DNA of 64,000 nucleotides from Polyangiaceae bacterium (GTDB lineage Bacteria > Myxococcota_A > Polyangia > Polyangiales > Polyangiaceae), in assembly GCA_020846005.1 (NCBI GenBank), contig JADLEQ010000035.1, forward strand, positions 1-64,000, in the 5' to 3' direction. Positions 28,733 through 32,215 of this stretch are shown here, in pieces; position 1 is the stretch's first letter, and every line of letters begins with the position of its first letter. A model generated the notes under the pieces. That model had not been told where the DNA came from. It saw nothing but the letters and a program-made list of their open reading frames with translations, and did no database searches. Made by a program: the position numbers and the translations under genes.

Positions 28733-29407
28733 TCAGAACACCTCCGCCCACGAGTCGAGCCGCACCGTCTCGGCCGGGCGGAAGCGCCCGCCCTCTGCCC
28801 AGTCGAAGAACGCGGCGCTCTCGGCGGCGAAGTCCACCACCGCGACGCAGGGGGAGTCCCCCGGGAGGAGCGTGCCGGCGTTCACGATCGTCAATGACCC
28901 GACCCGGCGCACGAGCCGTTCGTGGGTGTGGCCGTTCAAGACCCACGCGTGACGACCCGCGGCGAGCAGCGCCTGGAGCTCCGCGTTCGCGGCGAGCCGG
29001 TCGGCACCGTCGTCTGCCTTGACGCAGGCCATGTCGTTCTCGCCCAGGCCGTGGCAGAGGAGCGCGAGCCCGGCGGCCGTCTCGAGCTCCCTGGTGCGGG
29101 GGAGCGAGCGGAGGAAGCGCGCCGCGTCGTCGCTCAGCTCAGCGAGGCGCGTCGCGTGCGGGAGGTCGCGGATCGTGTCGCCGAGCGCCCAGCGGTCGTG
29201 GTTCCCCGCGACCGCGATGAAGTCGTGCTCCTCCAGCAGCTCGCAGGTGCGCGTCGCGTCGCCGTCGCCGTCGAGGATGTCGCCCACCTGCAGCAGGGCG
29301 TCCACGCCCTGCGCCCGCAGGAAGGAGACGGCGCTCGCGAGCGCTCCCGCCTGGCAGTGAGCGTCGCCCACCAGCCCGACTCGTCGCAGCGGGGCGCGCG
29401 GCTTCAC
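28733..29407 (-). CDS. Calcineurin-like metallophosphoesterase
   Basis: Cytosolic phosphoesterase of 224 residues, GTG start at 29407. The metal-binding motifs are complete: GLVGDAHCQ (D-x-H), LLQVGDILDGDGD (GDxxD), VAVAGNHDRWA (GNHD), LLCHGLGEND and WVLNGHTHERL (GHTH). Size and motif spacing fit the YfcE/MJ0936-like small phosphodiesterases. The substrate is not evident. The gene follows the HxsB-like radical SAM gene on the same strand with a gap of 94 bp, so the two may share a transcript. Confidence 0.86.
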   Translation of the reverse strand: MKPRAPLRRVGLVGDAHCQAGALASAVSFLRAQGVDALLQVGDILDGDGDATRTCELLEEHDFIAVAGNHDRWALGDTIRDLPHATRLAELSDDAARFLRSLPRTRELETAAGLALLCHGLGENDMACVKADDGADRLAANAELQALLAAGRHAWVLNGHTHERLVRRVGSLTIVNAGTLLPGDSPCVAVVDFAAESAAFFDWAEGGRFRPAETVRLDSWAEVF

Positions 29408-29501: not shown

Positions 29502-31013
29502 TCACGACCCCATCGCCGCCGTCTGGAGGAAGTGCGCCCGCTCGCGCACCGTCGTCCAACGACGGAAGATGTCCAGCGTCGCCTCGTCCGCCTCGGCGAG
29601 CCGCCGGAAGAGATCGTCCTGGATCCCCTTGTGGACGGCGCAGATGTGGCTCTCGCGCATGCGCCCCTGGAGGCTGCCGAGCGTCTTGTAGCTGTGCTCC
29701 GGCTTGGCGCCGCAGTACGGCGCGTACGTGCACGCCACACAGTCCGGCTGTACGTCGAGCAAGGACGCCACGAGCATCGCGCGCACCGTGTCGTGCAGCA
29801 TGAGCTCGCGGTAGCGCGAGGTCGCGACATCACCGATGCGGAACGTCTCGTCGCCCTGCTCGCGGAGCATGCGTCCCTCGTCGCTGGTGTAGATCCCGCC
29901 GTCGTAGTTGTAGGTGAGCTGCCCGATGCCCGCGCCGCCGGGGCTCCGGATGTCGAGGAAGTTCGGATCCGTGCCCGTCAGGATCTTGGTGAGGAAGATG
30001 GACGCGTAGCGTTCCATGACCTGCACCCCCTGGCGGTTCAGCTCGAGGATGTAGTCGAGCGCCTGGGAGTAGAACCGCATGTAGCGAGCGCGCTCGTACT
30101 CGACTTTGTCGTGCGTGCGATCCATGAACCCGAAAGGGTCGAGCGGCCGGAGGAAGATCGAGCGGCAGCCGAGGCCGACGTAGGTGTCCACGATCTCCCG
30201 CGGCAGGTCGAGCGCGGGGCGGGTCGTCGTGAGCAGGGCCTCGACATGATAGAGCACGGGATCGAGCCCGAGCTCGACGTAGCGCTGGTTGATGCGCTCG
30301 ATCCAGCGCGCGGCCACGCGGTAGGAGTTGTCGCCCACCAGCACGCGCTGCTTGTTGTGCAGGTTCTCCGGGCCGTCGATGCTGGTGCAGATCTGCACCT
30401 TGTTCTGGATGAGGAACTCGAGCTTCTCCTCGGTCATCAAGGAGAGGTTCGTCACCATCGTGAACTCGAGCTCCTTGCCGAACGCGCGGTTTCTCTCGAT
30501 GCCGTACTTCACGACGTGCTCCACGATCGGGAAGTTGGCGAGCGGCTCGCCTCCCTGGAACTCGATCGTGATCCGGGGCGAGGTGCTGGAGAGCGCCAGG
30601 TCGACGCTCCTCTCGGCCGTCTCGCGTGACATGTCCGTGTCCACGCGGTCCATCTCGGCGCGGCTGGCGTGGCAGTAGACGCAGGTCTCGTTGCAGCGCA
30701 GGGTGACCACGAAGATATGGAGGAGGGGCCCCCAGTCGAGGAACCTCTGCCGCTCGAGCAAGCGCGCGCGGAGATCGCCCGCGTGGACGCGATCGCGGAG
30801 GAACCGTCGCTCCGCGAGGCGCGGCTCGAGGCCCGCCGGCAGCTCGCCCCGGTACAGCGCGGCGAACTCCTCCTCCGTCACGAACAGCCAGTCGCCGAAG
30901 TAGGAGGTGAGCAGCACCTTGCCGCCGATCGCGCGGAAGCGGAACGGGACCAGGCGGCCGGGGCTCTTCGGGGACCGGGCGAGGGCGCTCAGCTGCTGCA
31001 TGGCGGGGAGCAT
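29502..31013 (-). CDS. HxsB-like radical SAM/SPASM maturase
   Basis: Radical SAM enzyme of 503 residues from the ATG at 31013 (another ATG lies four codons later). The N-terminus VPFRFRAIGGKVLLTSYFGD with WLFVTEEEFAALYRGEL matches the leader domain of His-Xaa-Ser-system maturase HxsB. The cluster-binding motif is CNETCVYC (Cys107, 111, 114), followed by IEFQGGEPLAN (GGEP) and QICTSIDGPENLHN. The C-terminal SPASM region has CVACTYAPYCGAKP near residue 424 and a final HICAVHKGI. Such enzymes modify ribosomal peptides, but no HxsA substrate, HxsC or HxsD is seen nearby. The pathway assignment rests on this family's known partners, not on local context. Confidence 0.78.
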   Translation of the reverse strand: MLPAMQQLSALARSPKSPGRLVPFRFRAIGGKVLLTSYFGDWLFVTEEEFAALYRGELPAGLEPRLAERRFLRDRVHAGDLRARLLERQRFLDWGPLLHIFVVTLRCNETCVYCHASRAEMDRVDTDMSRETAERSVDLALSSTSPRITIEFQGGEPLANFPIVEHVVKYGIERNRAFGKELEFTMVTNLSLMTEEKLEFLIQNKVQICTSIDGPENLHNKQRVLVGDNSYRVAARWIERINQRYVELGLDPVLYHVEALLTTTRPALDLPREIVDTYVGLGCRSIFLRPLDPFGFMDRTHDKVEYERARYMRFYSQALDYILELNRQGVQVMERYASIFLTKILTGTDPNFLDIRSPGGAGIGQLTYNYDGGIYTSDEGRMLREQGDETFRIGDVATSRYRELMLHDTVRAMLVASLLDVQPDCVACTYAPYCGAKPEHSYKTLGSLQGRMRESHICAVHKGIQDDLFRRLAEADEATLDIFRRWTTVRERAHFLQTAAMGS

Positions 31014-31090: not shown

Positions 31091-32215
31091 ATGAGCGAGC
31101 CAGGCGCCGCAGTGGATGACGTGCCGCGCTTCGCCCTCTCGGAGCTGCTCCGGCCCGAGCTCTCCGAGCTCCGCCCCTACGCCCCGGCGCAGGGCGACTT
31201 CGCCGTCCGCCTCGACGCCAACGAGGCGCCTCCGCTGCTGTCCGTCGAGGCCCGGGAGCGCCTCGCCGCCGCCGCGGCCGCCACCGCCTGGGAGCGCTAC
31301 CCGGACGCGACGGCGCACCGGCTCCGGGAGGCGATCGCCCGCCGAGCGGGGGTCGAGCCCGATCGGGTGCTCGTGGGGACGGGCAGCGACGAGGTCATCT
31401 GTACGCTGTTGACGGCGCTCGCGCGCCCGCGGGGCCGGCACGGGAGCGCCGCGGTCGTCACGACTACGCCCACCTTCGTGATGTACCGCGCGAGCGCGCG
31501 CGCCCGCGGCCTGCGGGTCGTCGAGGTACCGCTCGACGCGGCGTGGCACCCGAGCCTCCCGGCGCTCGAGCGCGCGATCGAGCTCGCGGCGCCGAACCTC
31601 GTGTTCCTCGCGAGCCCGAACAACCCGACGGGCACGGTCGCCTCACGCGAGACGCTCGCGGCGCTGGCCGAGCTGGCCCGCGGCGCGCTGCTCGTCGTCG
31701 ACGAGGCGTACGTCGACTACGCGAGCGGCGACGCTCGCGACCTGCTCGAGTCGCACGAGAACGTCGCGCTCCTGCGGACGCTCAGCAAGGTCGGCTTCGC
31801 GGCGCTGCGGGTCGGCTGGCTCCTCGGGCGGCCCGAGCTGGTGCACGAGCTCGACAAGGTGCGCCCGCCCTACGATCTCCCCACGGTGTCGCAGGAGCTC
31901 GCTCGCGTCGCGCTCGACGAGCTCTCCGGCGAGATCTCGCGGGTCGTCGCCCACGTGGTCGAGGAGCGGGCGCGGCTCGAGCGCGCGCTCGCGGCGCTGC
32001 CGGGGGTCGTGGTCACGCCAAGCCACGCCAACTTCGTCTGGCTCCGCACCGAGCGACCCGCGAGCGAGCTCTACGCGGCGCTGGCCGCGCGCGGCGTGCT
32101 CGTGCGCAGCTTCCACGCCCGCGGCGGGCGACTCGCGCATCAGCTCCGCGTGACGGTGGGGACCCGCGACGAGGACGACGCCTTCCTCTCCGCCTTCTCC
32201 GAGCTCCTCCGGTGA
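31091..32215 (+). CDS. hisC: Histidinol-phosphate aminotransferase
   Basis: PLP enzyme of 374 residues that converts imidazole acetol phosphate to histidinol phosphate. The fold-type I signs are clear: RLDANEAPPLL and YPDATAHRLREAIA at the start, GTGSDEVICTLL, FLASPNNPTGTVASRETLAA, VVDEAYVDYA (Asp for the pyridine nitrogen) and LRTLSKVGFAALRVGWLLG with the Schiff-base Lys233. The C-terminus HANFVWLRT .. VLVRSFHARGG .. LRVTVG fits HisC. The ATG at 31091 gives a normal length. It is not next to other his genes; a related aromatic aminotransferase role is possible. Its stop overlaps the start of the TPR lipoprotein gene (GTGA). Confidence 0.9.
   Translation: MSEPGAAVDDVPRFALSELLRPELSELRPYAPAQGDFAVRLDANEAPPLLSVEARERLAAAAAATAWERYPDATAHRLREAIARRAGVEPDRVLVGTGSDEVICTLLTALARPRGRHGSAAVVTTTPTFVMYRASARARGLRVVEVPLDAAWHPSLPALERAIELAAPNLVFLASPNNPTGTVASRETLAALAELARGALLVVDEAYVDYASGDARDLLESHENVALLRTLSKVGFAALRVGWLLGRPELVHELDKVRPPYDLPTVSQELARVALDELSGEISRVVAHVVEERARLERALAALPGVVVTPSHANFVWLRTERPASELYAALAARGVLVRSFHARGGRLAHQLRVTVGTRDEDDAFLSAFSELLR

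Follow-up and report, generated by a model that had tools for sequence, protein, structure and literature searches.

An AuxI-less HxsB-family radical SAM/SPASM maturase and the dispersed genes of a probable HxsA4-type His-Xaa-Ser system in a Polyangiaceae genome

Radical SAM/SPASM peptide maturases bind the leader of their substrate through an RRE and form a 5'-deoxyadenosyl radical at a CxxxCxxC cluster; whether catalysis needs the SPASM auxiliary clusters is still debated. AuxI can take up the substrate electron, as in SuiB, and a review regards the role of AuxII in SPASM enzymes as unclear (PMC9012708). For the heme synthase AhbD, a CX2CX5CX2C pattern with AuxI ligands at corresponding places has been described (PMC10452713). 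The closest described systems to the one analysed here are canonical HxsABCD (Haft and Basu; TIGR03976-TIGR03979) and its NCBIfam HxsA4/HxsC4/HxsD-like variants (NF038313, NF038332, NF038315). Our literature searches for HxsA, HxsB, HxsC and HxsD returned no experimental study and no HxsB biochemistry, and the substrate assigned to HxsB below is accordingly putative.

The window hxsB gene and its cysteine clusters

The window, meaning the whole 64-kb stretch of contig C35 that was analysed, belongs to a Myxococcota genome of 5.7 Mb (119 contigs, 99% complete) whose closest named relatives are Polyangiaceae MAGs. Gene calls were made by a simple script. An intact open reading frame at 29502-31013 on the minus strand encodes 503 residues, and the frame is open up to 31079 (525 residues). 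The protein matches the HxsB model TIGR03978 over all of its length (model positions 1-466 of 466) and scores 531 bits where the cut-off is 370; the next-best NCBIfam model reaches 115 bits. The preliminary description of this gene as hxsB is thus upheld, the product scoring far higher for HxsB than for other SPASM models. Placement in another SPASM family, which that description had named as counter-evidence, did not emerge: on the tree, HxsBs of myxobacteria group together as a clade opposite canonical HxsB. Orthologues in other genera are 68-72% identical to the window protein.

As originally noted, hxsB is solitary, lying between a metallophosphoesterase gene (Metallophos_2 by Pfam; 28733-29371, minus strand) and a divergent hisC-like aminotransferase gene recognised by sequence (31112-32215, plus strand), and no HxsA, HxsC or HxsD gene was found within the 64-kb window. 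Neither neighbour adjoins hxsB in the nearest relatives, G051 and G111; both were therefore rejected as partners, and the metallophosphoesterase probably stands outside the Hxs system.

The window HxsB was modelled with AlphaFold2 (pLDDT 89). Among solved folds CteB was the closest to the model, with anSME, ChlB and TigE also near. Preceding the barrel is a three-stranded sheet with helices (residues 24-68); the N-terminal elements comprise strands at 24-29, 32-37 and 42-45 and helices at 47-54, 62-68 and 78-88. On the basis of this secondary structure and the whole-length fold match to CteB, the region spanning approximately residues 20-92 (30738-30956, minus strand) is plausibly an RRE-like leader-binding domain. 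The N-terminal leader domain proposed earlier is accordingly plausible as a fold, and leader recognition would be its predicted function.

AuxI and AuxII positions were assigned by sequence alignment with CteB and anSME and from the AhbD ligand pattern. The radical SAM motif C107-x3-C111-x2-C114 (30672-30695, minus strand) is invariant in both of our alignments, A1 and A3. The AuxII ligands C425, C428, C434 and C458 (CX2CX5C...C; 29640-29741, minus strand) are likewise intact; the first three are invariant in A3 and C458 is nearly so, and AuxII ligands occur in every tabulated HxsB save two divergent, cysteine-poor open reading frames. The earlier statement that both cysteine clusters are intact therefore holds for the radical SAM and AuxII ligands but fails for AuxI. 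All three AuxI ligands are absent from the SPASM region (29628-29954, minus strand), where alignment with the AuxI-plus paralogue and CteB places Gly359, Ser377 and Lys437 instead of cysteine. These positions coincide with, or directly adjoin, the cysteines that CteB has in GCGSG, YPC and GGC, the third being one residue off in spacing, and the paralogue encoded on contig C55 has cysteines there (SPC, FTC, CGVC). Measured against a two-cluster SPASM region (three AuxI and four AuxII cysteines), the window HxsB falls short at AuxI, and a Pfam search detected a SPASM domain in the C55 paralogue and none in the window protein.

The idea that AuxI loss is peculiar to the window protein was dropped, as canonical HxsBs show the identical state. 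Seven of the eight canonical plasmid HxsBs compared have no AuxI cysteine and the eighth retains one; the window SPASM cysteines match this canonical state, with AuxII present and AuxI absent. Since the canonical proteins also lack AuxI, its absence here is not damage. Separately, the window HxsB carries two extra cysteines, C209 and C283, which occur in 93/100 and 74/100 myxobacterial HxsBs respectively and are missing from the canonical HxsBs compared. A catalytic or donor function for these residues is possible.

Hxs genes elsewhere in the genome and in relatives

The preliminary description saw no partners for hxsB. This is correct for the 64-kb window but not for the genome, which encodes HxsA4, HxsD, an HxsD-like protein, HxsC-like enzymes and a second HxsB. 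A TIGR03979 (HxsA) profile found no match in the genome; repeat peptides were sought with a DNA pattern for HxS repeats, and this yielded HxsA4 instead, a 101-residue peptide (C54:50495-50800) that ends (HGS)nW and matches NF038313 with 92 bits (cut-off 55). HxsD is encoded at C91:62300-62758 (58 bits, cut-off 50) and is directly followed by the HxsD-like protein (NF038315, 64.8 bits, cut-off 41). The genome search that had been suggested for HxsD and an HxS-repeat peptide hence recovered both above their cut-offs. For HxsC the same search gave a partial answer: several HxsC-like radical SAM enzymes are present, the best at approximately 102 bits and none reaching the cut-off of 267.9. One of them, a radical SAM enzyme that starts MANxGYxQ, is encoded on the window's own contig, 63 kb beyond the window (C35:127177-128388). 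It has HxsC as its best NCBIfam match (102 bits) and is the strongest candidate to take the place of the missing HxsC.

The second HxsB, on C55, is AuxI-plus and scores 534 bits against TIGR03978 compared with 531 for the window copy. It adjoins an HxsC4-like radical SAM enzyme that is the genome's best match to NF038332 (142 bits, cut-off 500). A better HxsB grouped with HxsA, HxsC and HxsD, envisaged earlier as counter-evidence, is consequently present only in part: the C55 copy has an equal score and the HxsC4-like neighbour, but HxsD and HxsA4 lie elsewhere. Altogether the Hxs parts are spread over C35, C54, C55 and C91 and are not clustered. Of the unlinked or undescribed substrate first suggested for the enzyme, the former term most likely applies; the latter does not, as the genome encodes HxsA4 (NF038313).

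Several further genes flank these loci. A methyltransferase-like protein with a CxxC-x6-C-like motif is encoded beside HxsD on C91 (L019:9045-9992), as in the window's family; it resembles genes near HxsB in other families and is a possible further tailoring enzyme. The same locus encodes a protein with a twin-arginine-like signal and no family name (L019:5086-5595; cluster cl4), which recurs beside hxsD in many genomes. On C55, a PA0069/Rv2578c-like radical SAM gene (L018:5978-7147) directly precedes the HxsC4-like and AuxI-plus HxsB genes.

Comparison of gene neighbourhoods, also proposed at the outset, gave different answers for different families. Related families possess a single operon of HxsD, HxsD-like and HxsB followed by the HGS peptide. 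In the window's own family, hxsB, hxsD and hxsA4 occupy separate loci in 6/6 relatives examined, from three genera; two of the six (G111 and G244) additionally contain a second operon that is complete, and in a seventh family member, G191, the Hxs set is linked. In most genomes of this family hxsA4 is found close to hemL, ppdK or glyS, and hxsD has a methyltransferase-like gene and a long gene for a radical SAM protein in its vicinity. These common neighbours, together with the assembly of one dispersed relative (G099) in 5 contigs, indicate that the dispersal is old and shared rather than an effect of assembly.

Unusual HxsBs were encountered in other genomes. Two HxsBs inside HxsD operons, L072:5318-6817 (G191:C199) and L211:6274-7773 (G185:C126), have lost cysteines of the radical SAM motif, with SNG and SCS in place of CCC, and have kept AuxII; each of these genomes has an AuxI-plus HxsB elsewhere. 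They are possibly pseudo-enzymes kept as scaffolds. Two divergent HxsB-like open reading frames of 34-35% identity, L213:7938-9329 (G219:C111) and L217:420-1913 (G247:C509), have no radical SAM cysteines and few or none of the remaining cluster ligands; one is in tandem with a normal HxsB and the other adjoins HxsD.

Co-occurrence was surveyed in 282 genomes of the Myxococcota phylum, using one set for all parts. HxsB was present in 98, HxsD in 100 and HGS repeats, by pattern match, in 101. All of the HxsB genomes (98/98) have HxsD and 94/98 have HGS repeats (Fisher p ~1e-60), although p-values of this order overstate the evidence because related genomes are not independent. The MANxGYxQ enzyme occurs in 96/282 genomes, 92 of which are HxsB genomes (92/98). 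A reversed control of the HGS pattern was nearly always absent, and in G041 the pattern itself matched falsely (HGR, not HGS). Absences within the same family and order, such as those in G006, G032 and G012, obey the same co-occurrence rule.

AuxI-plus and AuxI-minus HxsB copies

Among 123 distinct HxsBs, all three AuxI cysteines are present in 44, none in 49, the middle one only in 26 and other mixtures in 4; the first and third co-vary. The AuxI state changes approximately seven times on the HxsB tree. Exclusion of the SPASM region from the tree left seven changes, at least five of them on supported branches, and a SPASM-only tree minus the three AuxI columns gave five. Descent of the AuxI-plus copies from one ancient paralogue was rejected: those outside the operon do not form one clade (AU p 0.0001). 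Many of these non-operon copies, in six families, have a short, related radical SAM gene of HxsC4-like type as their neighbour.

Both AuxI states occur together in 24/25 genomes with two or three full HxsB copies, a pairing that is suggestive rather than proven. In most two-state genomes it is the AuxI-minus copy that belongs to the HxsD operon, with its AuxI-plus counterpart located elsewhere. G111 has the opposite layout, each copy is part of an operon in G144 and G182, and the window's genome has two solo copies. The window HxsB would then be an operon-type copy that is now outside its operon. Solo copies account for 25/38 AuxI-plus and 8/49 AuxI-minus HxsBs, yet despite these strong raw counts the association between the AuxI-plus state and unlinked position was not significant, owing to too few independent changes. 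The overall pattern suggests parallel, repeated splitting of HxsB into two specialised copies, with perhaps four to six independent splits in genomes that are clustered by family. Somewhat speculatively, such paired paralogues, split independently in several lineages, may each carry out a different radical reaction on the HGS-repeat peptide; AuxI loss would then mark a change of chemistry, such as one from oxidative cross-linking to redox-neutral modification.

Proposed role and comparison with known systems

We consider it probable, with good confidence, that the AuxI-less window HxsB matures the HxsA4 peptide encoded at an unlinked locus, as part of an HxsA4-type His-Xaa-Ser system with dispersed genes. 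Alongside the family, the cysteine pattern and the presence, dispersal and co-occurrence of the Hxs parts observed above, we infer a substrate, a function for the RRE-like domain and roles for HxsD and the two HxsB paralogues as follows. The N-terminal domain would most likely bind the leader of the 101-residue HxsA4, and HxsD and/or the HxsD-like protein would assist the enzyme. The window HxsB would cleave SAM at its CxxxCxxC cluster and abstract hydrogen from amino acids in the (His-Gly-Ser)n core. As the protein possesses the AuxII site and lacks AuxI, the electron of any net oxidation would have to bypass AuxI and exit by another route; the alternative is a redox-neutral step. The AuxI-plus HxsB from C55 probably catalyses another step or modifies another substrate.

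With two HxsBs in the genome, the C55 copy alone could serve HxsA4. The window HxsB would in that case have been released from the Hxs system to act on some other unrecognised, unlinked peptide, leaving the C55 HxsB and the HxsC4-like enzyme to mature HxsA4. The full SPASM cysteines and radical SAM neighbour of the C55 protein are consistent with such a release, as are three genomes (G066, G099 and G276) that have only an AuxI-plus HxsB and nevertheless contain HxsA4 and HxsD. However, G051 has HxsA4 and HxsD with the window-type copy only, the AuxI-minus copy occupies the HxsD operon in most two-copy genomes, and canonical HxsBs are AuxI-minus too; we judge release improbable. Decay of the window gene into a relic, having lost its AuxI ligands, neighbours and function, is very improbable. 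The AuxI ligands and operon context are indeed gone, and the operon copies of G191 and G185 have even lost the radical SAM cysteines, but the window gene retains an intact frame with all its radical SAM and AuxII ligands, its product is 68-72% identical to orthologues in other genera and the AuxI-minus state is shared with canonical HxsB.

The preferred reading, maturation of HxsA4 by the window HxsB, admits a refinement that we advance tentatively, as a real but minority prospect. Both HxsBs may act sequentially on HxsA4, the AuxI-minus enzyme introducing a redox-neutral or first modification and the other an oxidative one that needs AuxI. The presence of one copy of each state in nearly all multi-copy genomes and the repeated splitting of the states argue for this order of events; many genomes, however, have a single HxsB of either state, the multi-copy genomes are phylogenetically clustered, and some second copies (G111, G144, G182 and G244) bring their own HxsD and HGS peptide.

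HxsB offers a natural set of homologues in which AuxII is kept and AuxI has been gained or lost several times, making the role of the AuxI cluster testable; enzymes of both states are often found in one genome together with a highly repetitive candidate substrate. Furthermore, the genes of one peptide-maturation system can be dispersed around a chromosome, so that its maturase seems an orphan and mining for gene clusters would overlook the system. The Hxs parts found here constitute a concrete list for reconstitution.

AhbD resembles the window HxsB in that AuxII is conserved and the AuxI ligands are replaced in some lineages, but its substrate is a tetrapyrrole rather than a peptide, and the available part of the AhbD paper (PMC10452713) makes no mention of paired AuxI-plus and AuxI-minus paralogues. 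CteB, the ranthipeptide/SCIFF maturase (PDB 5wgg) that provides the closest solved fold, shares the N-terminal leader domain, barrel and SPASM region; unlike the window HxsB, it retains AuxI, and the two are approximately 18% identical. With the NCBIfam HxsA4-type variants the genome shares HxsA4 and HxsD-like proteins over their cut-offs; for HxsC4 the highest-scoring protein is the radical SAM enzyme beside the C55 HxsB, but at 142 bits where the cut-off is 500, and the genes here are on several loci. Features in common with canonical HxsABCD are HxsB and HxsD over their cut-offs, the radical SAM and AuxII ligands and an HxS-repeat peptide in the genome. In contrast to the canonical system, the genes are dispersed, the putative substrate is HxsA4 rather than HxsA, no HxsC exceeds its cut-off, an extra HxsD-like protein is present and the myxobacterial HxsBs form a separate clade.
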